Source: Meghimatium bilineatum
Lineage: Eukaryota; Mollusca; Gastropoda; Stylommatophora; Philomycidae
Length of the DNA: 64,000 bases
NCBI GenBank assembly: GCA_034231615.1
Contig: CM067315.1
Span: 11,121,915 to 11,185,914 of the forward strand
Direction of reading: 5' to 3'
This document shows, piece after piece, positions 8,781 through 64,000 of the stretch (position 1 is the first letter of the stretch; each line of letters starts with the position of its first letter). The position numbers and the translations under genes were made by a program. Below the pieces are notes generated by a model. The model worked only from the letters and a program-made list of their open reading frames with translations. It had not been told where the DNA came from and ran no database searches.

Positions 8781-9540
8781 TTGTATATAAAGAGAAAAAT
8801 GGTTGTTTCATTTGTTAGACATGGTTACAACATTGTATTTTATTCAAATTAATGCATATACGTGTGCAAAGAGAAAAATCACTTACCTAGGCTTATTTAA
8901 TTGCTTGGTGAAAAATGTACACAGCGTATTTCCAACTTCTAGTTACGTAATTCGATGCACAAATGAATGAGAAAAATTAAACAGTTGTCTTTTATAAACA
9001 ATAAAGTTGCGTCGCGTTGTCTAAAGACAATTGCTGTGGTCAGTGTTTCACGTGATGCAAAAAATGGATTCTTGGACGCTACCAAAACAAGGGAAGTAAT
9101 TTAAGCCACATTGACTTTCACGTCCCCTTACGATTTCCTAATGCCTATTATTATTATTAATAATACTAATTAATAATATTAATAATTATTATTCTAATTA
9201 TAACAAAACATGCTTAGGAGCCTTGATAAATAAACTACTACTAGGTAATAAATAAATAGGCATGTGTTGGGCATAGATGATAGTAAGACTCAGGCCTAAC
9301 GCTCAAGTTAGTCTATGCATGCCCCGTTGATTCAGATCGACTAAGTAATTAAATTAATTAGGCCCATAATTTAAAAAAAAACTGCAAATATGAATTTAAA
9401 TTATAGTAGGCAAATAAAATGACTTTGGCGAGCACGAAAAGAAGAGCAAAGAGTCAATAATAAATATAAATTGACAATAATCAATAATGTTATTGTTGCC
9501 ACCACCCATGTAACAATATGTTATGTTATTCATCATTAGC
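8781..9540. other. AT-rich sequence without recognised gene
   Basis: Short TAATAAT-type tracts near 9130-9200. No exon or repeat family recognised. Confidence 0.4.
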
Positions 9541-9819
9541 CTCGCCCGTGTGTTCCCAGGGCCCGAATGGGAGCAAAGAATAGCATCACTGTTTACCTTC
9601 CACGCATGTCGTAAAAGGCGACTAAGGAGGTTATGGGATGGAGTTGGCTGTCCCATCCCATATAGGGTCAGTGACCCAAAGCCATGCTGAAGTCGAATGT
9701 GTCAGGCCGAAAGGCGCGGATATCGCAGCAATGCTGTAAACCATGACACAACGCATTCCTTTCTCCGGACTGCATCCTGCTAATCTGCATGAGTTTGAGA
9801 AAGAACGCAGAAGAAGAAT
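9541..9819 (+). mobile_element. SINE family A copy, near full length
   Basis: It runs from CGCCCGTGTGTTCCCAGGGC through GGTTATGGGATGGAGTTGGC to GAACGCAGAAGAAGAA. A diverged second 5' piece of the same family follows at about 9822-9905. Confidence 0.9.
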
Positions 9820-14339: not shown

Positions 14340-15300
14340 CACTTGATCAAGGTGTACTTTACCCTTTTGTTTGCTTTCAGTAGTTTTTTTTCACAAGGTC
14401 ACAAAAATAGATATAATCAGTAATGAGACAATCAGACGGCAGGTGGGTATAACACGAGTGCGGAACTTCATCAGAAAACAGCAGGTCAAATGGTTCTGAC
14501 ATGCTACTAGTTACTAATACCATCCGAAAAGTGACGCTGTTTAAATACAGTGGGCTTAAAGTTAGAGAGGCACCCATGAAAATATGGACAGCATAAATAG
14601 AAGAGGTTTTTAAAACAACTTGTTTTTAGAAAGCTCACATGTCTGTTCCAGATCTCGTCTGTTCCTGTATATCAGGGCTCCATTGAGGCAGCAAGAAATT
14701 AAGGTTATATGAAAATATAAATGATTGGGATATATTATGAATAGCATTAATTGAGTTACATTCTTCCCAAAATGCAGTATTACTTATGAGCACTAAACTT
14801 CCTCACAATTCTGAGCAAGTTGACATGATGCCGCCATGGGCACCTCTAAAGACTCTGAAATGTCTCTCGTCCGTTGTTATCTTTGCCTTGGTACCAGCGA
14901 CTTTGCCTTCCATTACTAGTTTTCTCATGCTATTACGTCTCTTTATATAACCAAAATAAACTTCAGCTTTCATGTTGTGATGTTGTTCAAGATTCGACCA
15001 TTATCTACATTTAATGTTCTTTACATTGATTTGTCTTTCTCTGTGCATGGACCAAGAAGAAGATGGACCAGCGACATCGAAGAATGTATGCACGTCTCTG
15101 GCCAATGCAGTCCTGCTTGCCCGGGATAGAGAAGCGCTCAGAGTATCCACGATGAACACATCGTTCTGAGAAGAATATCTCACTTGATAAATAATATGCT
15201 TACTCTGTCCAGATGTAATTTAGCTTGACTGCTTTTGCATTGATATTTTATTATTGATATTATTTGTTTGAAACTACTTTCTACGGAAACATTCATAATT
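14340..15300. other. Intron sequence without recognised feature
   Basis: No repeat family or exon recognised. Short ORFs on both strands have no family resemblance. Confidence 0.4.
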
Positions 15301-15309
15301 TCCAAGCAG

Positions 15310-15359
15310 GCCCAAGTTGGAACCAAAGAAAGGTCAAGAAATAGTTGCTAATGATGTTC
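15310..15359 (+). CDS. DNMT1: DNMT1 exon, left part (split by a LINE)
   Basis: The acceptor TTTCCAAGCAG opens an exon in phase 2 reading R-PKLEPKKGQEIVANDV. It is cut after TAATGATGTTC (15,349-15,359), the left copy of the target duplication. Joined to the right part at 19,811 the frame continues with QAKEMTECDKC, so the pre-insertion exon was 162 bp and open. Confidence 0.85.
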
Positions 15360-18300
15360 TTCTTCTTCTTCTTCTGCGATCAGTTTCCTATGCTCATAAG
15401 TCTATACAGGAAGGTGGGCCGCCTCCATGAATTCAGTCGTCAGCAGGAGGTCCTCACGGTTGCCCCACAGCTTCACCTTCAGATCTGTCTCTTGAGGCCA
15501 TATTTTGGTTCTCACGTCATCAAAGAGTGGGCATGTCTGCAGAATATGTTCTGGAGTCTGGGGACCCTTTTGACATGGGCATTGGTCAGTTTGGGCAGCC
15601 TTAATTTTGTGGAGATGTGCTTGTAGTCTGCAGTGTCCTGTGCGAAGTCTAAAAATTGTGGTTTGTTGTGACCTGTTTAGCTTTAGAATAGGGTCCTGTG
15701 GAAAGTTACTGCCTGTTCTCTGACTCCATGTATGTTTGTATATTCCTTTGATGAGGGTTTTTGCTTCAGTCAGTGATATTCTGTGGTGGAATTGTTCCTT
15801 TTTTGCACCTGCTTTTGCCAGTCTGTCAGCTCCTTCATTTCCTGCTATTCCACAGTGTGCAGGGATCCACTGCAGCACAACTTTATTGTTGGCAGATAGT
15901 TGATTTAGAAGTTCTACAGTTGTTTTTGTTAGGAGATCTTTAGGTTCCTTTTGGATGGTTTGGAGTACTGACATGCAGTCACACAAGAAGACTATGTTAG
16001 CTCCTTTGAGCCTCCGTTCCTCTAGAGCCTTTGATGCTTCCAAGATTGCTTGTAGCTCTGCCCTGTAATTTGTTGATAATTTGCCAGTAGCAATTGAGAG
16101 TTCTAGTTTTGGGGTGTTTGGTATGAGTATTAGTATCCCAGCTCCTCCTTTCTTTACTGCACCCTCTGATGATCCATCTGTGAAGACATGAATCCACTGT
16201 GAGGTAGGGTATTGGGTGTCTAGGTGATCAAGTGTTTTTGCCTTAAGGGCAGTAGGGGTTTCCATAGTTTTGCTCTCAATGCCTGGTATTGTAAGTTTTG
16301 CTGTATATATGGGTGAAGTGTTTGTGATGTTGCAATATGCTTCTAGCTGTTCCCATTCATCCGGATTGTTGCTGGTTACTTCTTTATTGGCTTTCATAAG
16401 TTTTTTTGATAGGTGATTGAAGCTTGGTCTTTTCAGTCTGTTTTTTGTTAGTTCTTTTGTTTTTTCATGCATAGGGTGATGTTTCAGACGTCTAAATTTT
16501 TCTGTCATTATTGTGATTTTCTCATCCCTGCGGTCTGTTAGGTTTTGTAATCCTGCTGTTGCTTCCATTGATGTTATAGGTGTGCTCCTTAGTCCTCCTG
16601 TTATGATTCGGAGACCTGCATTTTGAATTTTGTCCAGCTTTTGAAGATTGGTGTTTGCTGCTGTTGCATATGTGGTCAATCCATATTCCAGAGTTGGACG
16701 AATGTGACCTACATAGACTTGTCTTATGGTTTTTATGTTGGCTCCCCAATCTGTCCCAGATAGTTTTTTCATTATTTGTAGTCTGCGTGTGGCTTTATTT
16801 TCTGTCTCTTCAATGTGTGATCCCCAAGTAAGTCTTTTGTCAAATTTTAGCCCCAGGTAGACTGGGGTGTTTTCTTTTGGGAGTGGGGTATTGTCTAGAG
16901 TGAGAGTATAATTTTCAGGTTTTGTGGAGAGGGTGAAAAGTGTAGTGACGGTCTTACTTTTGTTTATTTGAACACCCCAGGTTTTTGCCCACTCTTCAAC
17001 TTTGTTTATTGCCTCCTGCATTCTAACTTTTGCAACTCCAATGTATTCTGATTGGGTCCAGATAGCAAGATCGTCTGCATGGAGAGCTCTATGTACATAT
17101 GGTGTGAATAGTTTTGGCAGATCGTCTATAAAAACTATAAAGAGTGTGGGGGACAGAATTCCTCCCTGTGGGACACCTTCTGTTATGTTGACCATTTTAC
17201 TTTTCATTCCCTGGAGTTTGACTCTTGCATGTCTGCCTCGTAGGAAGCTTTTTATCCACTGAAACATTTTGCCTCTGATTCCTTTCTGGGCAAGTTTTAG
17301 CAATAGCCCCTCTTTCCAGACTTTGTCAAAGGCCTTTGTGAGGTCAAAGAAGGTGGCTAGGAGTTTTGATTTTTTCTGGAAAGCATCTTCTATTTCCTGG
17401 GCAAGGTATGTTGTTTGGTCCTCAGTGCATCTGTGTTTTCTGAAGCCTGATTGGCAGTCATCTAGAAGATTGTTTTCCTCCAGGTAGTTTAAGAGTCTGT
17501 TATTCACCATTTTTTCCATGACCTTTCCTAAGCAACTAAGTAGACTGATAGGGCGGTAACTTGTTTTGTTGGTTTTTGGTTTTCCTTTCTTGGCAATTGG
17601 AATTATTTCTGCCTCTTTCCATTCTTCTGGGAAGATCCCTTGCGCCCATGATTCATTAAAAAGGTCTAGGATTCTGCTTCTACCCACAGGACCTAGGTGT
17701 TGGAGCATTTCATTTGTGATTCCATCGGGTCCAGGGGCTTTCTTCTTTTTTAGATTTTGAATTGCCATGTTAAGTTCTGATTTGTGAAAAGGTGAGGTCA
17801 TTGTGCCTGGGCAAGGTTGATGTTTATTTACAAGGTTTTTTGTCTCTCGTCTTACTTCAGCAGTTCTTGTTCTAGTTATCTTAATTTTGCTTTCTTCAGC
17901 ATAGGAGTCTGCTAGAATATTTGCAGCTTGTGTGCCAGTGTAGGACTTCCCCTTGTCTTCTATGATGATACTACTTTGGGGGTTGTTTTCTTCATTGAGA
18001 CACTTGATAAGTTTCCACATTTTTGTTGAGTCTTTTTCCATGTTGAGTGTTGCTGTTTTTTCTTTCCAGCTGGATCTAATGCTGTTTAGCTTTTCTCTCC
18101 TGAAGATTGCTTGCAGTCTATTGTGTTCAATGATATTGATTTCTGTTGGTCTAGTTTCCATCTTGGATCTTGCAGCAGAGGCTTCATCATGCATAGCCTG
18201 GAGTTTTTTGTTCCAGAAGGGTTTGTAGTTTTGTCTTCTTCCTCTACGTATACTGTTGTTGGCAGCTTCCAGGATTATTCCTGTTATTAATTTTGCATCT

Positions 18301-19799
18301 TTCCGTATATTTCTTGCTGTAAGATGTGTTAGTAGTTTTTCCTCTGTAAGGCGTTGGTAAGTGTCCCAGTTAGCCTTTTTGTAGTTCCAGCTAGCGATTT
18401 TGTGTTGTTGCTTTTCTGTCTTGTGGTTCCCTTTTATTGTTAATATTACGGGCTTGTGGTCACTCCCACCAAGCTGTTGTACCACTACTCTTTCTGTCAC
18501 ACGTTGGATGTCCTCTGTTGCAATGGCCAGATCTGGAGTGCTCTGAGATTTCCATCGTCTGGAGTAAAAGGTTGGCTCTGATAGATGTTCATTTATAAGG
18601 ATTAGTCTATTTTCTATCATCCAGTCTTCTATTTCTTCTCCTCTCAAGTCCATAGTTGGGTAACCCCAGCTTGGGGAATGACTGTTGAAATCTCCAACTA
18701 TAATATGATTTGATGATGTGAGAGGTATTGTCCTGAGGTGTAATTTTTTGTTGTTTGGGCAGTAGAAATTTGTGATAATCAGTGGTTCTGGGGTTGTATG
18801 TAATTTGATGGTGAGATGTTCTGAGTCCTCTGGGTTACGTGCGATTTCTGTAGTAGGTATGTTATTTCGTACCATTGTGATGATCCCTCCTTTGTGGCCT
18901 AATCTATCTAATCTGAAGCATTCAAAGCCTCTGATGGAGAATCTGTTGCTGTCATTAAGATGTGTCTCCTGAATGCACAAGACATCAATCTTTTGCTTTT
19001 GAAGGAAATTCTGCAGTTCGAATTTCTTCTTAGCCACACCCTCACTGTTCCACTGCATAATTTTGATTGTGTTTTTGTTGTCATGATTGGTTTGGCCGGT
19101 TGCTCTACTCTGTTTAATCCCGGGTCCCCGATACACAGAGTCATCATCAGTAGCTTTTGGTGGACCCATTCGAGGCTGGGGGTCCGGAGCTCCTCCTGCC
19201 TGGCGATGAACCACAGGGGCAGCCCCACTTCGTGTAATAAATCCGAGCATAGTCATTAACTGTATATTGCGTACATGTCCCATTTCCATTGCTGGGTACC
19301 CACGCCTATTCAGGCTGACATGTTCCGTCTTCGGTGAGGGAAGTTATGGAGTCTTCCTATCCATGTTCTTGGACATCCTAGCACTGCCCGCAAGACATCG
19401 GAGGTTTGTGGAGTGGTCTTCTCCTATTTTACTGTCAGGGTTGTCTCCCATAGCCTTTCCATCTCCCGATGGTGACTGCAAGGCAGCAATTTTTTTTGGG
19501 GGGGGAAAAAAAAAAAAAAAAAAAAGCGCTCCTGACATGGAGTTGATTACTCCACGCCAGCAGCGTGAGCTTATAGCGGCTCATACTCGCTTGAAGCTGC
19601 CCGTCACTGGACACATGGGGTATTTCAGTGGGGATATCAGCACCGACTGATATCCCGCCCCGTCCTGGTAGGCAACAGCACCGGTTTGGTCCGCGGCTGC
19701 TTAATTGCAGCAAACACTCCATATATGGACATTTATGGAGTGCCCTCCACCATCCGCCACCTGTGGACGCGCCTGGTAGGGGTCGGTAGCCCCCCCAGG
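15360..19799 (-). mobile_element. Non-LTR retrotransposon (APE-RT-RNase H, I/Nimb-like group) inside a DNMT1 exon
   Basis: The element lies antisense to DNMT1. Its 5' end is at 19,799 (CCTGGGGGGGCTACCGACCC on the minus strand) and its 3' end at 15,360, finishing CGCAGAAGAAGAAGAA. TAATGATGTTC flanks it at 15,349-15,359 and 19,800-19,810. The 5' region of ~500 bp has no gag-like ORF1 but contains a G/A homopolymer tract near 19,490-19,523. It carries one long ORF2. RNase H downstream of the RT points to the I superfamily in the wide sense; the exact clade is not decided here. Confidence 0.92.
15402..19289 (-). CDS. LINE ORF2: endonuclease, reverse transcriptase and RNase H (1295 aa, open)
   Basis: Domains in order: APE-type endonuclease about residues 77-286 (IQETH at 107-111, GDFN at 199-202, SDH at 276-278); reverse transcriptase about 500-770 (AFDKVW near 653-658, GVPQGGILSP at 705-714, catalytic HADD at 737-740); RNase H about 1030-1165 (TDGS at 1037-1040, AEL at 1077-1079, CDCMS at 1103-1107, PAHCGIAGNEGAD). 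Near 1240 a C-terminal CPC...H....C cluster (CPCQKGPQTPEHILQTC) follows. The frame is unbroken, so the insertion is likely young. It nicks DNA and copies its RNA at the target. The A-D-D core is present, with His where Tyr or Phe is common. Confidence 0.93.
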   Translation of the reverse strand: MEMGHVRNIQLMTMLGFITRSGAAPVVHRQAGGAPDPQPRMGPPKATDDDSVYRGPGIKQSRATGQTNHDNKNTIKIMQWNSEGVAKKKFELQNFLQKQKIDVLCIQETHLNDSNRFSIRGFECFRLDRLGHKGGIITMVRNNIPTTEIARNPEDSEHLTIKLHTTPEPLIITNFYCPNNKKLHLRTIPLTSSNHIIVGDFNSHSPSWGYPTMDLRGEEIEDWMIENRLILINEHLSEPTFYSRRWKSQSTPDLAIATEDIQRVTERVVVQQLGGSDHKPVILTIKGNHKTEKQQHKIASWNYKKANWDTYQRLTEEKLLTHLTARNIRKDAKLITGIILEAANNSIRRGRRQNYKPFWNKKLQAMHDEASAARSKMETRPTEINIIEHNRLQAIFRREKLNSIRSSWKEKTATLNMEKDSTKMWKLIKCLNEENNPQSSIIIEDKGKSYTGTQAANILADSYAEESKIKITRTRTAEVRRETKNLVNKHQPCPGTMTSPFHKSELNMAIQNLKKKKAPGPDGITNEMLQHLGPVGRSRILDLFNESWAQGIFPEEWKEAEIIPIAKKGKPKTNKTSYRPISLLSCLGKVMEKMVNNRLLNYLEENNLLDDCQSGFRKHRCTEDQTTYLAQEIEDAFQKKSKLLATFFDLTKAFDKVWKEGLLLKLAQKGIRGKMFQWIKSFLRGRHARVKLQGMKSKMVNITEGVPQGGILSPTLFIVFIDDLPKLFTPYVHRALHADDLAIWTQSEYIGVAKVRMQEAINKVEEWAKTWGVQINKSKTVTTLFTLSTKPENYTLTLDNTPLPKENTPVYLGLKFDKRLTWGSHIEETENKATRRLQIMKKLSGTDWGANIKTIRQVYVGHIRPTLEYGLTTYATAANTNLQKLDKIQNAGLRIITGGLRSTPITSMEATAGLQNLTDRRDEKITIMTEKFRRLKHHPMHEKTKELTKNRLKRPSFNHLSKKLMKANKEVTSNNPDEWEQLEAYCNITNTSPIYTAKLTIPGIESKTMETPTALKAKTLDHLDTQYPTSQWIHVFTDGSSEGAVKKGGAGILILIPNTPKLELSIATGKLSTNYRAELQAILEASKALEERRLKGANIVFLCDCMSVLQTIQKEPKDLLTKTTVELLNQLSANNKVVLQWIPAHCGIAGNEGADRLAKAGAKKEQFHHRISLTEAKTLIKGIYKHTWSQRTGSNFPQDPILKLNRSQQTTIFRLRTGHCRLQAHLHKIKAAQTDQCPCQKGPQTPEHILQTCPLFDDVRTKIWPQETDLKVKLWGNREDLLLTTEFMEAAHLPV

Positions 19800-19810
19800 T
19801 AATGATGTTC

Positions 19811-19922
19811 AAGCCAAGGAGATGACTGAATGTGACAAGTGTCCTGATGAGAGCGATGATAAGGAAAACAGTCCCAAGAGGGCCAAACTAGAAGATGAAA
19901 ATAATATCAACCAACAAGAAAG
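19811..19922 (+). CDS. DNMT1: DNMT1 exon, right part (after the LINE)
   Basis: It resumes with QAKEMTECDKCPDESDDK and runs through a charged linker (NSPKRAKLEDENN) to the donor GAAAG|GTAAGC in phase 2. The second copy of the target duplication (19,800-19,810) precedes it. PKRAKLED looks like a nuclear localisation motif. Confidence 0.85.
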
Positions 19923-20228
19923 GTAAGCTGATTTTTAAATTAATTACAATCTGACATATGACTCGGCATAGATTATGTTAACTGCATGTAGAGTGCCTGG
20001 TCTCTCCAGTGACATACCAGAACAACCACCATGCAACAACAAATCCCTAGTAGATAACGTGTATGTCGTGAATAGTATTATTTTTCTCGAATAATAATAA
20101 ATGCTTCCTTTTGGGAAAAACATAAACCTATAAGCCCCCTTAACACAACCATGCTTATACTCACCGGTATCACCTTAGTTGAGGAAGACCTGTACTTTTG
20201 TCAGAAAATCTGTCAATTTATCAGTGGA

Positions 20229-20390
20229 ATGTCGAGCTATCTGCTTGCAGCTAAAGGTATTATTTCATCATCATCATGTGTCAAGAGCTATCTGCTCGCA
20301 GCTATAGGTATTATTTCATCATCATCATGTGTCAAGAGGTATATGCTCGCAGCTAAAGGTATTATTTCATCATCATCATCTGTTTGTTTC
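20229..20390. repeat. ~51-bp unit, three copies
   Basis: GAGCTATCTGCTCGCAGCTA then TAGGTATTATTTCATCATCATC is repeated three times. Confidence 0.9.
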
Positions 20391-20443
20391 CCCTCCCACT
20401 TGTAATCTTTTACTTCATGTTATGAAATGTTTCTTATTTACAG

Positions 20444-20561
20444 AAATCCCACAGTGTTGACTTTAAGTCATACGAAAGCTCTCCCAGAAAGATGTAATGA
20501 ATGTTTGAAGTACATGGACGATCAGGAACTGAAGTTATTTCCTGGTGATTCTGAAGATGCT
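20444..20561 (+). CDS. DNMT1: DNMT1 exon: start of the RFTS domain
   Basis: The acceptor TTATTTACAG and donor GCT|GTAAGT. RCNECLKYMDDQELKLF with PGDSEDA lines up with human PPKCIQCGQYLDDPDLKY at the start of the replication-foci-targeting sequence domain, including the C..C zinc ligands. It enters in phase 2 and leaves in phase 0. Confidence 0.92.
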
Positions 20562-20720
20562 GTAAGTTGTGTTGCTCATTTGTTTGTATCTGTGGTCAGT
20601 TAAGAAAAATTTGTCTCTTCCTTTTTTTCCTTGCATCTTTCCTTGAAGGATCATTGTAGCAAGGTTAGATGGTAATAGTCACGTCCATAAAAGTATTTTT
20701 TTTCCATTGTGCACACATTA

Positions 20721-22254: not shown

Positions 22255-22364
22255 GTTGAAGAGTTCATTGCCCTCACTGATCCAAAGTTGTCATTGTTTA
22301 CTGGTAACGAAGACTTTGATAAAATAACGGAAGACCGGCCACAACATAAAATCACAAACTTCAG
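22255..22364 (+). CDS. DNMT1: DNMT1 RFTS exon
   Basis: The acceptor ACTATTTCTAG and donor TTCAG|GTAAGT. VEEFIALTDPKLSLFTGNED and DRPQHKITNF match human [20 protein letters not shown]...LPQHKLTCF. It enters in phase 0 and leaves in phase 2. Confidence 0.93.
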
Positions 22365-23107: not shown

Positions 23108-23226
23108 TGTTTATGATAAGAACACACACTTGTGTGCATTTGACACCTGCCTGATTGAACGTAACAAGTATCTGTACTTCAGCGGAATCTTGAAACCCAT
23201 ATTTGAAGAGGATGCCAGCCCAGAAG
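23108..23226 (+). CDS. DNMT1: DNMT1 RFTS exon
   Basis: The acceptor TTCCCTTCCAG; the donor is GAAG|GTATGG. SVYDKNTHLCAFDTCLIERN, then KYLYFSGILKPIFEEDASPEG, lines up closely with human [20 protein letters not shown] and the following FFSGSAKPIYDDDPSLEGG. It leaves in phase 1. Confidence 0.95.
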
Positions 23227-24779: not shown

Positions 24780-24872
24780 GTGGAGTACCTTGCCGCAACA
24801 TGGGTCCAATAAATGAATGGTTTGTTGCTGGCTTTGATGGAGGAGAAAATGCCTTGATTGGGTTTTCAACAG
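24780..24872 (+). CDS. DNMT1: DNMT1 RFTS exon
   Basis: The acceptor TCTATTCCAG and a donor at [30 protein letters not shown] and [11 protein letters not shown] match human [20 protein letters not shown] and GGEKALIGFST. It enters and leaves in phase 1. Confidence 0.95.
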
Positions 24873-25629: not shown

Positions 25630-26965
25630 CGAGGGGGAGTCAATAAGTAAGTCACAAATTGATGTTGGATGGCAGGAAAATGCAGTAGGTGGTTTCTAAA
25701 GCTGTTTATAGTTGATATCATCATAGAACTTTATGTTTATGTTCGCTAGATGGCGCTAGCTGTACCTTGCGCATGCGCAGCACAAAAAACAAAATGGCTA
25801 CTGTACTTACAGAGTGTACAATCAATGAACAACGTGCTGTTGTGCGTTTTTTATGGGCAAAAGGACTGCCTGCAAAAGACATTCATAAAGAAATGCTTCC
25901 TGTTTATGCTGACAATTGTTTGTCCCGTAAAGCGGTGCACAGCTGGGTAAAAAATTTTTCTCAAGGACGCTCTAAAATTGTTGACGAAATCCGATCTGGT
26001 CGTGCTGTTGAAATTGCAACAGACGCATCTGTGCAGCGGGTTGAGGAGATGATTCGAGGTGACAGACGAGTAACGATAGACGCTGTAGCAGCTGCAATAG
26101 GGTGCTCACATGGTTCAGCATACAGCATCATGCATGACCGATTGAAATTTAAGAAGGTGTGTTCAAGGTGGGTGCCCAGACAATTGACGGACGAACACAA
26201 AATGAACCGATTAGGCTTGTCATTGGAGCATCTCTGTCAATACGCAAATGAAGGAGAAGACATGATGAACAGGATTATTACTGGGGACGAATCATGGGTG
26301 CATCACTACCAGCCTGAATCAAAGCGTGCTTCAATGCAATGGAAACATCCTTCTTCGCCTTGTGTCCAAAAATTCAAGGTTACACCATCAGCAGGGAAGG
26401 TTATGCTGACAGTGTTCTGGGATTGTCAAGGAGTGCTTTTAACCAATTTCAAAAAGAAAGGTGACAATGTGAATTCTGAATCATACTGTGAAGTTCTATC
26501 AGTGCTTCGGGATGCAATTCGAAGAAAACGTCCAGGGCTGCTGACTAGAGGAGTGCTACTCCTTCATGACAATGCTAGACCACATACGGCTCGATTAACT
26601 CAGGAGAAAATAAAAAATCTTGGTTGGAAAATTCATGAACATCCTCCTTACAGCCCCGATTTAGCCCCTAGTGATTTTCACCTTTTTGGTCCACTAAAAA
26701 CCCACCTTGGCGGGAAGCATTTTCGCGACTGACGCAGAAGTTGAATGTGAAGTGAAAATGTGGCTTAAAAAGCAGAGCACGCAGTTCTACGCAGCAGGTT
26801 TGGGAGGACTCATAAAACGATGGGATAAATGCATCAATGTTGGTGGAAATTATGTTGAGAAGTAAAGGAATAATGTATGTGTAAAAATAAACAGTTTTCA
26901 GGTTTTTATCGTCTTCAGTTTTTTTCTAAAGAGCCATTTGTGACTTACTTATTGACTCCCCCTCG
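25630..26965 (+). mobile_element. mariner transposon with perfect 29-bp inverted ends
   Basis: The left end CGAGGGGGAGTCAATAAGTA (on to 25,658) is the exact reverse complement of 26,937-26,965. TA flanks it at 25,628-25,629 and 26,966-26,967. The length, about 1.34 kb, and the single transposase ORF are typical of mariner/Tc1. It lies within the piggyBac-like element. Confidence 0.95.
25767..26875 (+). pseudogene. mariner transposase, DD34D type, one frameshift
   Basis: An N-terminal helix-turn-helix region (CSHGSAYSIMHDRLKFKKV) is followed by WVPRQLTDEHKMNR, then GDESWVHHY (first catalytic Asp), HDNARPHTA (second) and YSPDLAPSDFHLFGPL (third). 34 residues separate the second and third Asp, which defines the mariner DD34D class. 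The frame stops after HFRD at about 26,732, but one base later continues as DAEVECEVKMWLKKQ to a stop near 26,864. So the C-terminus is lost by a 1-nt shift and the protein is probably inactive. A likely start is the ATG at 25,794 (MATVLTECT). Confidence 0.93.
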
Positions 26966-28185: not shown

Positions 28186-28337
28186 GTTTTGTCGAGTACA
28201 TATTGATGCAACCCAGCGAGGCTTACAGTCCTTTCATTGAGCAGATGAGGGTCAAAGTTCATATGTCCAAGATTGTTATTGAATTTCTCATCAACAATCC
28301 AGATGCTAGTTACAAGGATTTGTTGAATAAAATTCAG
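28186..28337 (+). CDS. DNMT1: DNMT1 RFTS exon
   Basis: The acceptor TTCTGACTGCAG and donor ATTCAG|GTATTA. GFVEYILMQPSEAYSPFIEQ then MSKIVIEFLINNPDASYKDL match human [20 protein letters not shown] and the following segment. It leaves in phase 0. Confidence 0.95.
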
Positions 28338-29531: not shown

Positions 29532-29706
29532 ACTACCGTACCTCCAGCTGGGCTGACAAGTTTATCAGAAGATAGCGTGCTCCGACATGCCCAGTTTGTG
29601 GTGGACCAAGTCCAGAGTTTTGATGATGCAGCAGAGGAGGATGAGTCTCTGCTCATTACTACACCTTGCATGAGGGCGCTAATCAAACTGGCTGGCGTTA
29701 CTTTGG
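29532..29706 (+). CDS. DNMT1: DNMT1 exon: end of RFTS / autoinhibitory linker
   Basis: The acceptor TATGTTCCTCAG and a donor at TTGG|[26 protein letters not shown] and TTPCMRALIKLAGVTLG line up with human [20 protein letters not shown] and LTPCMRDLIKLAGVTLG. It leaves in phase 1, which does not fit the next exon found (phase 2); the CXXC exons should come between them. Confidence 0.95.
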
Positions 29707-30046
29707 GTAAAAGATGTGTGAAGCACAATAAATATCCTCGCAGTCATCTGGTGTTGTATCATTTGTTTGTTCGCTTTCTAACTCCCTACTGGATCTTCTT
29801 GATTAGAAACTGGCCTCACAGCACGTGGGGCATTCCCATAAGTGCACTCCCTCTATTCCAGCAGCTATCCGATTTGATGGTGTTTTGAGTCTTATGCCGC
29901 CGAAACTGACGTCGACATTAGGGCACAACTCAGGCCCTTGCGACAGGTTTCTTTGTTCTGCTCACCTACACTGTGCCCGTCCTAGTCCAAGCAAAATGTC
30001 GGCATGTCGAAACAACATGGTAACTGTTATCGAAGGTTACGACTAC

Positions 30047-30175
30047 GGGATCCCCGCTGGATCTCCCTTTTAGCAGGAATATGGTCAGACTAGATTTCCA
30101 GAAGGATGTCCAGAGAACAGATGCGTTATGTCATAATTTTATTTGCTTCAGTTGCTCAGCATGTACGACTTTGGC
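30047..30175 (-). mobile_element. SINE family B fragment, minus strand
   Basis: CCCCGCTGGATCTCCCTTTT to GCTCAGCATGTACGAC, diverged. The preceding 29,740-30,046 holds no recognised exon, including no CXXC pattern. Confidence 0.6.
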
Positions 30176-30370
30176 AGCGTTATATTATTTCACTAGCAGC
30201 ATTTATAACTGACAAATGTTTATATAGCACACTCACTCGAGGCGTGTGTGTAAATGTGTCTCGAGAGTCAGTGAGATACTAAATATGCATGTACTTAAGA
30301 AAGAAGATCATCTCATTTTAAATTAAATTTGGTTTGGGTGTTGTGGAATGGCATTAATTTTAACTTTTAC

Positions 30371-30645
30371 AACGCCCTTGTGTTGCCGGGGTCCGATAGG
30401 GGAACAAAGAATAGCAACACTGTTTACCTTCCACGCATGTCATAAAAGGCGACTAAGGAGGTTATGGGATGGGGTTGGCTGTCCCATCCCATATATGGTC
30501 AGTACAGTAACCCAAAGCCATGCTGAAGTCGGATGTGTCAGGCCAAAAGGCGCAGATATCGCAGCAATGCTGTAAACCATGACACCACATTATGTTCTCA
30601 GGACTACATCCTGCTAATCTGCAGGAGAATGAATGCAAAAGAAGA
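30371..30645 (+). mobile_element. SINE family A copy
   Basis: CGCCCTTGTGTTGCCGGGGT to GAATGAATGCAAAAGAAGA. It fills part of the short gap where the DNMT1 CXXC exons are expected. Confidence 0.9.
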
Positions 30646-30865
30646 TTAATGCAGAAGATACTTTTGAAAATAAAATAAAATATTGTTAGGAATATAAAAA
30701 ACTTTCCTTACTACATGTTTTTCTGTGATGGAGTGCTGGGGGGTTTTCTATGGGAGGTTTTCTTAGGAATATAAAGGGAAAAAAAATTAATAAACTTTAT
30801 CACTTGTTCATGTTTGCCTTGACCTTAAAGTTCACATACTTTTTATTTTTTGTATTTTCCATTAG

Positions 30866-31079
30866 GTGTCCAAATATGGCCATTAAGACGGCAGAAGAAG
30901 ATGATGTTGAAGAGGAATCAGAAATTGAAAAAGAGGATCAAGAAAGCAAAAACTTGGTGGCAGTGACTAAACATAAATCTGCTAAAAATGTCAAGACCAA
31001 AGTAGTTTGGCCTGGTCTACCAACACATGAAGAAAACAAGAGGAAATATTATACAGCAGCCAGGATTAATGACGTCGAG
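30866..31079 (+). CDS. DNMT1: DNMT1 exon: last CXXC cysteine, acidic linker, start of BAH1
   Basis: The acceptor TTTCCATTAG opens in phase 2 and reads (R)CPNMAIKTAEEDDVEEE, like human RRCPNMAMKEADDDEEVDD; that Cys is the last zinc ligand of the CXXC finger in human DNMT1. It continues WPGLPTHEENKRKYYTAARI toward BAH1. The donor GAG|GTCAGT is weaker than the others and leaves in phase 0. Confidence 0.9.
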
Positions 31080-32670: not shown

Positions 32671-32702
32671 CACCAGATAACCAAGGGAGATCTCACCTGC
32701 AG

Positions 32703-32892
32703 ACCCAACTCAGCCGTTCTACATTGCTCAAGTTCAGTACCTGTTTGAAGAAGGTGGCTGCAAGCAGGCACATGTCCACTGGTACTACAGAGGATGTGAA
32801 ACTGTCTTAGGAGAGGCATCTGATCCTCTGGAGCTATTTTTTGTCGACGAGTGCGATGACAATGAGCTTGTTGCAGTACACAGCAAGTGCAG
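32703..32892 (+). CDS. DNMT1: DNMT1 BAH1 exon
   Basis: PTQPFYIAQVQYLFEEGGCK, then HVHWYYRGCETVLGEASDPL and ELFFVDECDDNELVAVHSKC, follow human KPLYLARVTALWED...[25 protein letters not shown]. The acceptor is uncertain. CACCAG at 32,676 would put an in-frame TAA at 32,678, so CTGCAG at 32,702 is preferred. The donor TGCAG|GTATGG leaves in phase 2, although the next exon needs phase 0. Both junctions therefore break the frame. Confidence 0.85.
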
Positions 32893-33824: not shown

Positions 33825-34082
33825 GTCATCCAGAAAGTTGTTCCTGAAGACTGGAATATGAAAGGTGGCATTGACAACCCAGATGAAGACAATGTCATTT
33901 CTGAGGATGATGGCAAGACATTCTATTTTCAGAAGTTTTATGAACCCAATTTTGGCAGGATTGAGGATCCTCCTGATATAGAGGTTCTTTCGGACAGTGA
34001 GAACCAGAATTGCTGCATTAGCTGTCAGAGGTTGGAGAAGAAGAGATTGCTAGAGGAGACAGTCCTAGAGGAAGTTACTCGA
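33825..34082 (+). CDS. DNMT1: DNMT1 exon: end of BAH1
   Basis: The acceptor TTCTTCTGTTCTAG and donor ACTCGA|GTAAGT. VIQKVVPEDWNMKGGIDNPD, EDDGKTFYFQKFYEPNFGRI and NCCISCQRLEKKRLLEE match human [35 protein letters not shown] and KFCVSCARLAEMRQKE. It requires phase 0 entry and leaves in phase 0. Confidence 0.95.
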
Positions 34083-36016: not shown

Positions 36017-36172
36017 GCAGACGGTGGATCGTCCAGCTGTCTGTATTACACAAGTGTCAGAACCAATGGTCTAGAATATTCTATAGGTGATTGTTGTTAC
36101 ATTGATCCGGCGGGGTATGGGTTCAAGATAGTACACGAGAAGATCTCAACTGCAAGAAAATCACAGTCCAAA
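36017..36172 (+). CDS. DNMT1: DNMT1 exon: start of BAH2
   Basis: The acceptor TTTGTTGCAG and donor TCCAAA|GTAAGT. SSCLYYTSVRTNGLEYSIGD and CCYIDPAGYGFKI match human RVLYYSATKNGILYRVGD and VYLPPEAFTFNI. Phase 0 at both ends. Confidence 0.95.
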
Positions 36173-37167: not shown

Positions 37168-37347
37168 GTTGATAAAGATGTTTGTTTACCCAGAGGCCTA
37201 TCGCAAGTCGGAATACGTGAAAGGGTCAAATGACAAGTGCCCAGAACCGTTTCTTGTTGCCAGGATTATGGAAATCTTTACCAAAAAAGTCTCAGGAAAA
37301 CAACCTGAACTTTCTGAGGTCACGGTGAAGGTCAATAAATTTTACAG
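37168..37347 (+). CDS. DNMT1: DNMT1 BAH2 exon with 5' frameshift
   Basis: The acceptor TTGATGCAG. In the phase inherited from the previous exon it reads VDKDVCLPRGLSQ and stops. After a 1-nt shift near 37,180 it reads FVYPEAYRKSEYVKGSND, CPEPFLVARIMEIF and VTVKVNKFYR, matching human LYPEHYRKYSDYIKGSN, PEPYRIGRIKEIF and IKIRVNKFYR. The donor TTTACAG|GTCAGT leaves in phase 2. Confidence 0.93.
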
Positions 37348-38195: not shown

Positions 38196-38461
38196 AATTG
38201 AGAACACACATAAGGGGTCACAGTCTGTCTTATCACACCGACCTCAATGCCTTGTTTTGGAGTGATGAGGAGACCACTCTGGGTTTCTCGCATATCCGTG
38301 GAAAATGTACAGTTGTTTACAGAGAGAACTTGACAGAAGATGTTGACAGTTACTTCATTGGAGGGACTGACCGCTTCTATTTTGCGGAGTCTTACAGTGC
38401 AGACACTCGACAATTTGATGACCCTCCAGCAAAGGCTCGGCTCATGGGCAATACTGGGAAG
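38196..38461 (+). CDS. DNMT1: DNMT1 exon: end of BAH2, internal frameshift
   Basis: The acceptor TTTGTTCCTCAG. The phase from the previous exon gives (R)IENTHKGSQS, as in human RPENTHKST. One base later the homology resumes as SYHTDLNALFWSDEE, GFSHIRGKCTVVYRENL and GGTDRFYFAESYSADTRQFD, so a 1-nt insertion lies near 38,226-38,232. The donor GGGAAG|GTAAGA leaves in phase 0. Confidence 0.94.
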
Positions 38462-41365: not shown

Positions 41366-41492
41366 GGTAAGGGTAAAGGAAAAGGCAAGGGCAAAGGAAA
41401 GTCTAGTAAAGATGAGTTAGAACAGGAGAATTCTGTGAAACATTTTTCAGTACATCAGCTGCGAACACTGGATGTCTTTGCTGCGTGTGGAG
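41366..41492 (+). CDS. DNMT1: DNMT1 exon: (GK)n linker and catalytic motif I
   Basis: The acceptor TTCTATTGTAG and donor GGAG|GTACGT. GKGKGKGKGKGKSS is the conserved linker before the methyltransferase domain. HQLRTLDVFAACGG then matches human PKLRTLDVFSGCGG, motif I of C5 methyltransferases, which binds S-adenosylmethionine. The first Gly of F-x-G-x-G is Ala here. It enters in phase 0 and leaves in phase 1. No later catalytic motif is found downstream. Confidence 0.95.
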
Positions 41493-47500: not shown

Positions 47501-47935
47501 GTAGTCTTCCATCAATCACAATATCATGTCAGCACGTAGTCTTCCATCAATCACAATATCATATGTCAGCACGTAGTCTTCCATCAATCACAATATCATA
47601 TGTCAACACGTAGTCTTACATTAATGACATATATGTCAACATGTATTCCATCAATCACAATATCATGTCAGCACGTAGTCTTCCATCAATCACAATATCA
47701 TGTCAGCACGTAGTCTTCCATCAATCACAATATCATATGTCAGCACGTAGTCTTCCATCAATCACAATATCATATGTCAACACGTAGTCTTACATTAATG
47801 ACATATATGTCAACATGTATTCCATCAATCACAATATCATGTCAGCACGTAGTCTTCCATCAATCACAATATCATATGTCAACACGTAGTCTTCCATCAA
47901 TCACAATATCACGTCAGCACGTAGTCCTCCAGCAG
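41540..47935. repeat. ~37-bp minisatellite, roughly 180 units
   Basis: The unit is TCATATGTCAGCACGTAGTC followed by TTCCATCAATCACAATA; shorter forms of about 34, 31 and 27 bp lack TAT, GTAG-type or AATATC parts. Identity between units is very high. ORFs of up to 145 codons through it are products of the repeat. It fills the intron after DNMT1 motif I and ends about 430 bp before the first cathepsin D exon. Confidence 0.97.
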
Positions 47936-48360
47936 TTTCTACCTTTGGAGATGCAGACGAGTGTGGAAAGATCTTGATTTTAGGATGGGGTTGTTTTTTT
48001 TTAGTATTTTTTTAGATAGATATTATGGTTTTGGGTTACGATTAGGCTGTATTAGTTGTAGAATAAACTTTTTGGGTTATGGTTAGTATACTTTATTTCT
48101 CTGTAACCATACTGCTAGTAGCACTGCCACGAGAGAGAAAGAGAGATCTGGTTCCCAAGTCACCAACCTCAAAGCTAACCAAAATCACACTTGCTGGACA
48201 TTTTTGTCCTTATCAACATAGCCACAGACTTTCCTTTTATAAAATTGGGTCCAGACACTAAAAAGTTGAGAATCTGTGCTTAGATGTGGTGTACACAGTT
48301 TAAAATATTGAGAAACCCTGATGTTCCATATAATTCCATTTGTTTTGTTTGTTTTCTCAG
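47936..48360. other. Sequence between minisatellite and cathepsin D exon
   Basis: AT-rich with T runs. No further DNMT1 or cathepsin D exon recognised. Confidence 0.45.
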
Positions 48361-48502
48361 TTTGACTGTTAGTACTACAACATATTGCAATGGAGGCTGC
48401 AGGGCCATAGCTGATACTGGCACCTCGTTGCTCGCTGGACCCAGCAGTGAGATAGAAAAGTTGAATGCTCAGATTGGAGCTATCAAGTTTGTAGAAGGAG
48501 AG
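48361..48502 (+). CDS. CTSD: Cathepsin D-like aspartic protease exon with second catalytic DTG
   Basis: The acceptor TTGTTTTCTCAG and donor GGAGAG|GTGGGT. It reads LTVSTTTYCNGGCRAIADTG, then TSLLAGPSSEIEKLNAQIGA and IKFVEGE. The ADTGTSL box is the second active-site aspartate motif of pepsin-family proteases; the segment matches human LTLCKEGCEAIVDTGTSLMV. Cathepsin D degrades proteins in lysosomes. It enters in phase 2 and leaves in phase 0. The first DTG half of the protease is not in this window. No frame damage is seen. Confidence 0.93.
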
Positions 48503-48539
48503 GTGGGTTGATTTGTGTAGCTCATTTTTTATGTTTACC

Positions 48540-48990
48540 TAGAACAAGAAGAGGTATTATGAAATCTACAGGGAAAGGAGGAAAGTGAAAGACAGCACAT
48601 GGGGAAAGAAGGAAAGACCAAGACAACCTACAGGGAAAGAGAAAGATGGTCCACAAGGAGAAGGAAAGATAACAGCCCACAGGGAAAGAAGGAAAGAGAG
48701 AGGCAGCCCACTGGGAAAGAAGGAAAGCAAAAAACAGCCCACATGGAAAGAAGTAAAGAAACAGTTCACAGGGAAAGAAGGATAGCAAAAATCAGCCCAC
48801 ATGGAAAGAAGGAAAGAGAAAGACGGCCCACAAGGAAAAAAAGGAATGAGAAAGACATCCCACAGGAAAAAGAGGGAAAGAAAAAAATAACCCACACGGA
48901 AAAGAAGGAAAGAGAAAGATAACCAACAAAGAAAGAAGGAAACTGCAAAATAACCGGCATGGAAAGAGGAAGATAACATTCATAGAGGAA
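48540..48990. repeat. Purine-rich ~30-bp degenerate tandem repeat
   Basis: CACAGGGAAAGAAGGAAAGA and similar phrases recur about 14 times; the + strand is almost all purine plus CAC. ORFs of 66 to 137 codons on both strands are repeat-derived. Confidence 0.9.
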
Positions 48991-49434
48991 AGAATGACAC
49001 ATTCAAAATGGTAAAACATGGAAAGAAATCAAAGCAATGGATTAAGATAAGCAGATATGGAAGAAATGTGTTAAGATTGTTTATTTCATTTATTTATGCT
49101 TTGTTTTGCCGGCCAATGAAAAGTACAGCAGTAGTCAGATTGGCATTCTTCAGTGATGTAAAGTTAGTGAGCACTCTGGCCTGTTATAATGAAGGTCACG
49201 GTTATATGCTACCCTTTCCTTACCAAATAAGTACCTTTCTGGTATTCACACGTATCAGAGTAATTTTCATCATGGCATACAAGGGACCCATTTTGCCTTT
49301 CCTCTTCAGCCCCAATTCACTTTGCCATACTTCAGCATATAGCCCGTTACCAGGACACATCACATAAACAAAAGTGGATGTGGGGTTTTTCTGGATCATT
49401 TGTGGTTTAGTGATTTTCTGAATAGACTGATGGC

Positions 49435-49590
49435 AGCTGCGAAGGCGGATGTGTCGGGCCATTGACACAAATAACACACAGACAGTGTATTTCCATTCTC
49501 TGGAATACATCCAACTGGAAATCTTGTAGAACTATTGTCCTGTTACAAGAGAAATCCATGAGAGTTTGAGAACGAACGCTGAAGAATAAG
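49435..49590 (+). mobile_element. SINE family B copy
   Basis: GCGAAGGCGGATGTGTCGGG to GAACGAACGCTGAAGAATA. Confidence 0.85.
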
Positions 49591-49709
49591 ACTGATGTGC
49601 ATCACCGTAGGAGTTTCATCTCTTTTATCAGATATGGAAGAGCATGTACGCTGATAGTTCCCATAACTCATTCACTGTATATCGTCCTCATTCTACTTCT
49701 CTGTCTATG

Positions 49710-49980
49710 AGTTGTTCGGTCCGAAAGGGGGGCAAAGAATAGTGACACTCTTTAACTTTTATGCATGTCATAAGAGGCGACTAAGAAAGTTGTAGGGTGG
49801 AGTTGGCTGTCACATCCCATATATGGTCAAAGTGACCCAAGCGCATACTTAAGACAGATGTTTCATGTTGAAAGGCGTAGACATCACAGCAAAGCTGTAA
49901 ACGATGACACAATGCATTCCATTTGCCGGACTATAACCTGCTAATCTACAGGAATGTGAGAAATAATGCAGAAGAAGAAA
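49710..49980 (+). mobile_element. SINE family A copy
   Basis: GTCCGAAAGGGGGGCAAAGA to AATAATGCAGAAGAAGAAA. Confidence 0.85.
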
Positions 49981-50039
49981 AAATCTTTACCCTTTACTGT
50001 AACCCCAAGCAATTTCGAACTCGTTCAATCTCTTAATAA

Positions 50040-50260
50040 TAGTCTCTTCTCTCATGGTGTTCCAACCACCTGGACCTAGACTTCTAGTTCAGAAAAAAAT
50101 CACATTGCAGCAAACAGGATTTGAACCAGATCTGCTCAGATGGCCTCTACTCACCTCGCAACTTGATTCAACATGTTTTCCGTCTTCTGCCACACCACAC
50201 CTACCGAAGTTTTTGCAGGTGTGAAACCACAACATACTTCATCCGCTCATGGGTTAGCTA
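50040..50260 (-). mobile_element. Possible tRNA-derived SINE, minus strand
   Basis: GGATTTGAACCAGATC is the reverse of a B-box-like sequence, followed by a tRNA-like segment ending GCAACTTGATTCAAC. Weakly supported. Confidence 0.3.
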
Positions 50261-50674
50261 GCTATTCTAAATCTTGCGGATCATGGATTGAGAGTCCTAT
50301 ACAGTAACTGACCTAGCCATTTGTCCAAACCAGTTGTTGTCAAGTTGGGCCATTAGGCCCTTCAGGAGACCACAGCATATTGTTGGGACCATAAATAAAA
50401 TATCGGAGATTAGAGACAGTGGATCTTTCTAGTAGGAGAAAGGGCAGAGAAAGATTTCCACAATATTTAATATAATATAATATAAACCTGGAAAAAAGTT
50501 AACAAGCTTTTATTTGAGGTTTCATTCAAACAGAAGCATAATTATACAGAAAGAGTCGACGGGAAAAAAAAGGTTTAAGAATTGCTGGTATAAACTATAA
50601 GCAGTTTGTTATATGTTATTGTTTTCAAAATTTCCGTGAGTTGTAGATCAAATTTTGACACTTTCATCCTGCAG

Positions 50675-50773
50675 TATCTGGTTGTGTGTGCTAACATTCC
50701 AAAAATGCCAAATGTGACCTTTACCATTGGAGGACAGGGATTTGTGCTTACACCTCAACAATATGTTCTCCAG
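50675..50773 (+). CDS. CTSD: Cathepsin D-like exon, penultimate
   Basis: The acceptor CATCCTGCAG and donor CTCCAG|GTTAGT give 33 codons in phase 0: YLVVCANIPKMPNVTFTIGG then QGFVLTPQQYVLQ. It joins in frame to the exon at 48,361 (VEGE|YLVV) and matches human (IQGE)YMIPCEKVSTLPAITLKLGG. The final exon, with the WILGDVFIG segment, was not found in the remaining 13 kb. Confidence 0.93.
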
Positions 50774-50959
50774 GTTAGTTTATTTCAGTTTCATTAGTGG
50801 AAGAGTAGTATGTTGTCAAGTAGCTAATATACCACTCTCTTAAGTTTTGAGGATATTAGTTCAAATTCTCTGTAAGAAATTTTTTATTCAGGGATTAATC
50901 TATAATAAAATCTGCACTGAAATATGCCCCTTGCAAACTGCAATAGTGTAGTGTTAAGT

Positions 50960-51130
50960 CATCTGCCCACCAACCAGCACACCTGGGTTTCAAGTCCATT
51001 TATTATTCATAGGATGAAACAAAATTTACTCTTATGGTTCCCTCAGAAACCAGGAAGTGAGGTACCAGGGCTCATGCTTTGGGAAGGTTGAGAAATTGTA
51101 CCATTACTACTTTAAAAAGTGTGGTAGGAG
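50960..51130 (+). mobile_element. Dispersed repeat C, fragment
   Basis: ACCAGGAAGTGAGGTACCAG and GGGAAGGTTGAGAAATTG match the copies at 34.9 and 58.3 kb. Confidence 0.6.
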
Positions 51131-63800: not shown

Positions 63801-64000
63801 CAATGAAGGAAAGATTCCAAAATCTAGCAATGGGACGACTGAAAAGAAGCAGCTTTATCCATCAAGCTAAACGACTCCGCAGACAACTTACAGACCTACC
63901 TGAAGTTGACAGCCCCTTAAGGCCTGTACCAGAACAAACCCCGTGGAGTGAAAGGCATGGAATGCCAATATACATTCAGACCCATGTGAAAGGAATACTA
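60825..64000 (+). mobile_element. Second APE-RT non-LTR retrotransposon, runs off the window
   Basis: The 5' region from about 60,825 has no long ORF before ORF2. The protein segment NRATGQTNKQPIKIMHWN resembles SRATGQTNHDNKNTIKIMQW of the 15.4-kb LINE, so the two belong to one broad group but are clearly separate families. The RNase H and 3' end lie beyond the window. Confidence 0.88.
61019..64000 (+). CDS. LINE ORF2, partial: endonuclease and reverse transcriptase, open to the window end
   Basis: Read from the ATG at 61,019 I found no stop over about 990 codons in the parts checked. Domains in order: endonuclease with CCIQETHLSS, VCGDFNSHSQSWG and GGSDHRPVF; RT with KSPGADGVSNEMI, YRPISLTSCLCKTMERII, RKAFDKVW, HGVPQGGVLSPTLFLVYIND and catalytic MYADDLVIW; then YLGVTFDDKLTWKQHI of the thumb region. 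The true start could lie a little upstream. It appears to be a young copy. Confidence 0.88.
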   Translation, partial: MSTSRNSYGACPVADVQAGTVPGPIPRKGPTSVTGSPSQLPRGARRQGNRATGQTNKQPIKIMHWNAEGVNSKRDGYSKKLELENVLSEEQVSICCIQETHLSSDIAFKIRGYQCYRSDRKDRRKGGILTLVKNNISACQLEVYMEGAEYQMLHLKTDSAEFHLLNYYCPNDKPLALDTIPDKERLMVCGDFNSHSQSWGYDHIDKRGEELESWQDENNLILINQPADSPTFYSRAWHTTSTPDLAFHSPGLEWNITRVVGKQLGGSDHRPVFLEIHNEFSKDSSTLTRWNYKRADWKMYQHLTSVLAKDMNLDKDINRAVSEFNRCILQAASKTIPRGARKNYKPYWNDELEKLQNEMETSRQQAENRPSQEHHNKYQQTKAKFQRAKLQARRSSWKEKTESLNLERDTRKLWKLVKQLNDEGTGRNKRITLYKDRNILTGKHAADYFADSFAEDNNVKVSPDKQQEVRENQKNIGQGEPIPDVMEAPITMRELEHAISKLKMKKSPGADGVSNEMIRNLGIAARAKLLQIFNTSWSTGNVPQAWREAIMIPLLKSGKDGNTVSNYRPISLTSCLCKTMERIINLRMQWYLESENLLVSQQAGFRQCYSTEDQATYLSQEIEDAFQEKKLVLAAWIDLRKAFDKVWKEGLLKKLRNCRVSSRMYKWVKAYLHNRRARVQLDGRKSKKVLLRHGVPQGGVLSPTLFLVYINDLVAELPHGIKVAMYADDLVIWCTEEHATVATKQIQRAIDALTLWANRWCVSINTDKCSTTLFTLSPKQKAGHIKIDGELLKEDKQPTYLGVTFDDKLTWKQHINKATTKARRKLAILRKLSGTTWGASGNILSKVYQQGIRPHLEYGSAAWCPASNTTLQDLDKVQNQALRIMLGAMKSTPIAEMQKMGRMQTLGERRDTKVLIQAEKFQCMPSHPMKERFQNLAMGRLKRSSFIHQAKRLRRQLTDLPEVDSPLRPVPEQTPWSERHGMPIYIQTHVKGIL

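Follow-up and report, generated by a model that had tools for sequence, protein, structure and literature searches.

A LINE interrupts a DNMT1-derived coding exon in a 64,000-nucleotide stretch of the Meghimatium bilineatum genome (the window; C18:11121915-11185914 in the genome searched), and it has very probably hit a truncated, non-processed duplicate of the gene that was already dead. The LINE hit itself is ordinary. The surprise, and the finding worth keeping, is the spread of the DNMT1 half-gene through this genome. The apparent paradox of a central gene broken by a LINE is removed, because a dead copy leaves no selective paradox to be explained.

The interrupted exon and the inserted element are arranged as follows. 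The exon labels (E1 and so on) are our own, and E11 is not used.

15310-15359, plus strand: left half of the interrupted exon E1, with the first target duplicate; identified from frame and splice sites; one mismatch to the C10 locus over 220 bp
15349-15359, plus strand: target-site duplicate 1, TAATGATGTTC
15360-19799, minus strand: non-LTR retrotransposon (LINE) of 4,440 bp, full length, with its 5' end at 19799 and a (GAA)n tail at 15360
15402-19343, minus strand: LINE ORF with endonuclease, reverse transcriptase and RNase H
19800-19810, plus strand: target-site duplicate 2
19811-19922, plus strand: right half of the interrupted exon, then the donor GTAAGC

The 11-mer TAATGATGTTC is present twice on the plus strand of the window, and the 4,440 bp between its two copies are the antisense LINE. 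When the insert and one duplicate are removed, the exon is 162 nt long (15310-15359 joined to 19811-19922) and is read in a single open frame as PKLEPKKGQEIVANDV|QAKEMTECDKCPDE..., with an AG acceptor upstream and GTAAGC downstream, so that both splice sites are normal. This exon is coding by origin, because the following exons run on in frame into the RFTS domain of DNMT1. The first-pass annotation of this DNA had described a young antisense LINE of 4,440 bp within a DNMT1 coding exon, with an exact 11-bp duplication and with coding exon halves that share one frame, and all of this is borne out. It had also described an open ORF2 of 1,295 codons. The ORF is open over 1,295 codons from the first Met (1,313 codons stop to stop), but the label ORF2 is probably not apt. 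The single ORF combines endonuclease, reverse transcriptase and RNase H (Pfam PF00078, PF14529, PF03372 and PF00075), and the LINE is treated as a single-ORF element because no ORF1 of at least 150 codons is found within it upstream of the 1,313-codon ORF. No Rfam match (up to E 1) is found near the LINE, at 15200-20600.

Copies of the LINE were searched for over its own genome (1.61 Gb, 32 contigs), and 33 of 6,755 candidates were scored, at 99 or 100% identity. All 20 copies that were fetched from these 33 are full length and share the CCTGGG 5' start and the GAA-type tail, and 17 of them keep the ORF. The target-site duplication is a signature of the family and is variable in length, being 10-14 bp in the 20 fetched copies and 11 bp here. 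Seven of 4,437 aligned bases separate the exonic LINE from its nearest copy, and the other 18 fetched copies are 0.41-0.79% away from it. The signature is that of a genuine insertion, and a recent one, because the duplication and the ends are of the family type and the distance to the nearest copy is only 7/4,437. The family is young and probably active in this genome. Protein relatives of the LINE in gastropods are 42-81% identical among the best 120 of 224 matches. The LINEs of Littorina saxatilis, Batillaria attramentaria and Bradybaena similaris contain the same endonuclease, reverse transcriptase and RNase H domains, and nothing notable sets the exonic LINE apart from them. Its clade is presumably the I group or Ingi-like. 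The antisense LINE 5' end (CCCCCCCAGG) together with the duplicate forms an acceptor-like site (window 19790-19805, with 15329-15338), so that a ready-made 3' splice site may come with antisense exonic insertions of this family.

The remainder of the DNMT1-derived copy in the window extends downstream of the interrupted exon.

9481-9657, no strand: junction at which 8.4 kb of the C2 copy is missing from the window copy
20444-20561, plus strand: DNMT1-derived exon E2
22255-22364, plus strand: exon E3 (RFTS)
23108-23226, plus strand: exon E4 (RFTS)
24780-24872, plus strand: exon E5 (RFTS)
25716-26732, plus strand: mariner-type transposase ORF, inside a stretch at about 25630-26965
28186-28337, plus strand: exon E6 (RFTS), the PF12047 match of the window
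29532-29706, plus strand: exon E7 (last part of RFTS), not in frame with E8
30866-31079, plus strand: exon E8
32690-32892, plus strand: exon E9 (first BAH), acceptor uncertain
33825-34082, plus strand: exon E10 (first BAH)
36017-36172, plus strand: exon E12
37168-37347, plus strand: exon E13 (second BAH); frameshifted by 4 bp inserted here and missing from the C10 and C2 copies
38196-38461, plus strand: exon E14 (second BAH); frameshifted by 1 bp inserted here and missing from the C10 and C2 copies
41366-41492, plus strand: exon E15, start of the methyltransferase domain; motif FAACGG, which is FAGCGG in C10 and C2
41541-47931, no strand: 37-bp minisatellite, 182.6 units

Exons E1 to E7 constitute one frame, the LINE aside. 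The copy as a whole is without one open frame because of the mismatch between E7 and E8, the frameshifts in E13 and E14, and the LINE in E1. CXXC exons between the RFTS and BAH exons are not found in the window copy, the only copy to which this result applies, either by six-frame reading of 29,700-30,865 or as tblastn matches to Lymnaea DNMT1. Catalytic exons are not found by tblastn in window positions 41,494-64,000 and the 20 kb beyond (this search covered the window, these 20 kb and parts of the C2 and C15 loci), and exons for the DMAP-binding part are not found in the window copy. The marks of a working gene, namely catalytic exons, CXXC and an open frame across the exons, are all missing from what was found of this copy. 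It has retained introns, a disabled frame and a candidate parent elsewhere, as a non-processed duplicated pseudogene has. It is not a processed pseudogene, which has no introns, because intron sequence aligns between the copies in blocks of about 91-98%. In a search of proteins of up to about 1,346 aa, the top DNMT1 match is that of Lymnaea, and that of Littorina is also listed; like the LINE relatives, these matches point to a gastropod host.

In the 8.4 kb of the C2 copy that the window copy lacks, the DMAP-binding N-terminus of Littorina DNMT1 is matched by two pieces, at E 5e-5 and, weakly, at E 0.04, and Penelope-like fragments occur there as well. Near the DMAP pieces (L030:1509-4560 of the C2 copy), weak reverse transcriptase and GIY-YIG matches adjoin each other, both below the Pfam cut-off, and we take this pair to be Penelope-like. 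The mariner stretch is missing from five other RFTS copies with alignment across it, of eight compared. At the corresponding position the C10 gene has 4.6 units of the minisatellite and the C2 copy about 1.2 kb of it, such that the array of the window copy is by far the longest.

The catalytic domain (PF00145) is matched at two places in the genome, C10:38917521-38917775 and C8:31184173-31184361, when all four candidates are scored. The C10 locus (38.917-38.944 Mb) is the only locus with DNMT1 exons that is seen to have catalytic exons. Its sequence was read over 221 bp round E1 and over one 8-kb stretch. The 8-kb stretch contains E12 to E15, with the motif FAGCGG, followed by two catalytic exons, GLSEGFHQAG... 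and ...GGPPCQGFSGMNRFN..., which are 91 and 94% identical to DNMT1 of Lymnaea stagnalis. E1 at this locus is without the LINE and is equal to the window flanks at 219 of 220 bases. RFTS exons are also present on C10, as judged from the match lines. Because catalytic exons, RFTS exons and an empty E1 are combined at one locus, C10 is the locus most likely to be the working DNMT1 gene, and we infer that this gene is intact throughout. The earlier argument of strong selection against an insertion in so central a gene is unsupported for this copy, which does not resemble a working gene while the C10 locus has an empty exon. Of the explanations offered with that argument, a dispensable gene is not needed, given a locus on C10 with catalytic exons and an empty exon, and a copy that is already dead fits the missing exons, the frameshifts and the dozens of sister copies. 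The PF00145 match on C8 has a score of 36.6 bits, and no third place is listed. As a guess, the C8 locus may be DNMT2.

The sister copies are numerous. The empty exon E1 is contiguous in all 40 copies scored from 94 candidates (35 over bases 1-162, and five from base 2 or 3), and 17 of the 40 are identical over all 162 nt. Paralogous empty sites are therefore available by the dozen, in sister copies of the same genome. The RFTS domain (PF12047) gives 105 genome matches when 150 of 237 candidates are scored: the third RFTS exon accounts for 76 of them, spread over 20 contigs, and an earlier exon for 29. Most of the 76 third-exon matches have no internal stop. When the RFTS and E1 places are merged, at least 85 distinct loci on 21 contigs are obtained, C10 and the window included. 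At C14:26.28-26.98 Mb, two pairs of copies lie about 41-42 kb apart on one strand.

The amplified unit is larger than the DNMT1-derived part. Two boundaries in the window bear on it.

47981/47982, no strand: breakpoint, with DNMT1-derived DNA on the left and DNA foreign to the C10 gene on the right; identical in 5/5 copies examined
51130/51131, no strand: right edge of the homology of the window to the C2 and C15 copies, which run on together past it

The breakpoint at 47981/47982 is shared by the window and by the copies at C2, C15, C18:5.93 Mb and C5:13.85 Mb, which suggests a single joining event. The C18 copy can be aligned with the C2 copy, block by block at about 91-98%, over a stretch that begins 13.6 kb to the left of the window and ends at window position 51,130; the sequence of C2:37245000-37255999 lies outside this alignment, and the searches place an empty exon and RFTS exons within it. 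The C15 copy, of which 20 kb was compared, aligns with the window over 47,913-51,130. The homology between the C2 and C15 copies goes on, block by block, at least as far as C2:37279766. The unit thus spans at least C2:37216014-37279766, which is about 64 kb or more with private insertions included. It exceeds 1 kb, is more than 90% identical between copies and occurs at more than one place, as segmental duplications do. Examples of the unit are seen at C2:37.22-37.28 Mb, C14:26.28-26.98 Mb and C15:21.2 Mb.

At 23 of 40 scored places, a probe from the left flank has a DNMT1 exon downstream of it on the same strand, the nearest one 19-50 kb away. At the remaining 17 places, none of the scored exons lies within 70 kb. 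This probe gives 2,037 first-look candidates, so that a much commoner repeat may have part of the unit in common with it. The left end of the unit is not reached in seven of eight fetched stretches, and in the eighth the DNA changes immediately to the left of the probe. The right end, too, lies past the stretches read. At C2:37215600-37216050 and in seven sister stretches (L044-L051), an array with a variable number of short units (about 32 bp by eye) adjoins this probe near the far left of the unit. The right-flank probe gives 329 first-look candidates and E1 gives 94, numbers that are not copy numbers and do not compare as such between probes; at 10 of 40 scored right-flank places, the 60 kb upstream contain none of the scored DNMT1 exons in the same orientation. 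The possibility that the foreign right flank is a separate, commoner element was dropped, because the two of these 10 places that were read still have the DNMT1 side and the same breakpoint.

No transposase is found among 10 ORFs scanned from the fetched parts of the unit. When compared with Pfam, five of these ORFs have no match, four match reverse transcriptase or endonuclease and one matches GIY-YIG, some below the curated cut-offs. A virus or a large coding transposon was considered for the unit and rejected, because its parts have few long ORFs and those scanned have either no Pfam match or these matches.

The copies of the unit differ from the window by K2P distances of 0.017-0.033, and one by 0.060 (alignments of at least 1,000 bp, minisatellite excluded). 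This divergence is at least 10 times the distance of the LINE from its nearest copy. Because the unit is about 2-3% diverged and the LINE differs at 7/4,437 positions, the LINE landed much later than the unit was amplified. The most distant copy, at C12:16481666 (L022), is about 6% from the window, which is about twice the distance of the others, and it is possibly an older branch of the unit.

Across E12 to E15, the changes private to the window or the C2 copy are 11 amino-acid-changing and five silent, whereas the changes that separate C10 from both of them are zero amino-acid-changing and seven silent (Fisher p 0.0046). The 11:5 pattern, obtained from two copies, looks like the prediction of neutral decay after amplification. 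At nine compared loci, exon divergence is 47/3,086 = 1.5% and noncoding divergence is 681/24,841 = 2.7%, in comparisons that all share the window's own changes. The lower exon divergence could hint at constraint. The values for the C2 locus alone are 1.9% for exons and 2.1% for noncoding sequence.

These results suggest the following course of events. A genomic segment that carries DNMT1 from its 5' half up to the intron following the motif-I exon would have been joined to foreign DNA at one breakpoint. The unit so formed (about 64 kb or more) was then copied to dozens of places (at least 85 loci), about 2-3% divergence ago. The copies decayed, in the window copy probably before the LINE arrived, and this copy is now without recognisable DMAP, CXXC and catalytic exons and has broken frames. 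Much later than the copying, the LINE was inserted into the window copy, presumably by target-primed reverse transcription, which is the established insertion mechanism of LINEs and is indicated here by the duplication and the tail. The exon was probably under little or no constraint at this place, so that the insertion was tolerated.

The alternative that DNMT1 at the C18 locus is the working gene, disrupted by a damaging LINE allele that is rare or has risen recently, would be in accord with an exon and splice sites that are perfect apart from the insert and with the single frame of E1 to E7. It has next to no probability, however, because the catalytic, CXXC and DMAP exons are not found, two more frameshifts are present, dozens of sister copies exist, and C10 carries catalytic exons together with the empty exon; a working gene in the window was rejected on the lesions and the C10 locus. 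It is likewise extremely unlikely that multi-copy DNMT1 or the insertion is misassembled. The compared copies are 2-6% from the window with private lesions, the left-flank probe keeps its position 19-50 kb upstream on the same strand in 23/40 places, and the duplication and LINE ends match the family. Intronisation of the LINE, in which a donor within the exon (AAAG|GTCAAG) is joined to an acceptor formed by the antisense LINE 5' end (CCCCCCCAG|GTAATG), is very improbable. Both candidate sites exist, and the removal is predicted to be in frame, with five residues lost and a truncated protein made; the exon length is a multiple of three, so that in-frame skipping is possible as well. The downstream frame is broken anyway at E7-E8, E13 and E14, however.

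The copies might instead be functional, producing truncated proteins of the DNMT1 regulatory half, or RNAs, from many loci under selection. The scarcity of internal stops among the 76 RFTS third-exon matches and the lower divergence of exons than of noncoding sequence are consistent with such a role. We consider it improbable, because changing substitutions outnumber silent ones 11:5 after amplification, both copies that were read over E10-E15 (window and C2) have frameshifts, and the 17 identical E1 copies among 40 are close to the neutral expectation at roughly 1% change per copy, which is an estimate and not a test. A bolder reading is that the regulatory half of DNMT1 (RFTS and BAH, without the catalytic domain) was captured by a very large DNA unit able to spread itself and was multiplied by it to dozens of places, that RNA or protein from young copies interfered with DNMT1 and thereby eased the escape of the unit from silencing, and that LINEs now use the decayed copies as landing sites. 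This is improbable. Decay of a duplicated half-gene, followed by the LINE hit, is the explanation that we prefer, and the amplified half-gene raises the testable question of how the unit spread and whether silencing was ever affected.

The window copy resembles an ordinary non-processed pseudogene in that introns are kept, frames are broken and a candidate parent exists elsewhere, but differs from it in the presence of at least 85 loci over 21 contigs. Extra DNMT1 genes that arose by duplication are also on record for marsupials (PMC5886458) and a wasp (PMC9075658). In other animals such extra genes are generally few and functional, whereas dozens of truncated copies are present here. No report of dozens of truncated DNMT1 copies in a mollusc was recognised in the literature searched. 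In segmental-duplication families and gene-capturing transposons (Pack-MULEs, Helitrons and giant elements), a host gene fragment and foreign DNA are amplified as a block, as is the case here. The present block differs from these capture systems, because it is about 64 kb or more and contains half of DNMT1 with introns, and because no transposition protein of its own is found among the 10 ORFs scanned. In part of one published account (PMC6431247), most types of eukaryotic TE, also those that capture genes, are described as much more modest in size. Block amplification of half of the methylation-maintenance gene on this scale, introns included, is unusual. An exon of the DNMT1 5' half taken at random from this genome most likely comes from a duplicate, and gene counts, methylation studies and expression studies that map to DNMT1 could be misled.

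Another LINE is present at the right end of the window. At 60830-64000 and over about 5 kb beyond, two blocks of it (about 4 kb each) lie head to tail, and it is also found inverted in the C15 copy. By eye, the start of its ORF resembles that of the exonic LINE.
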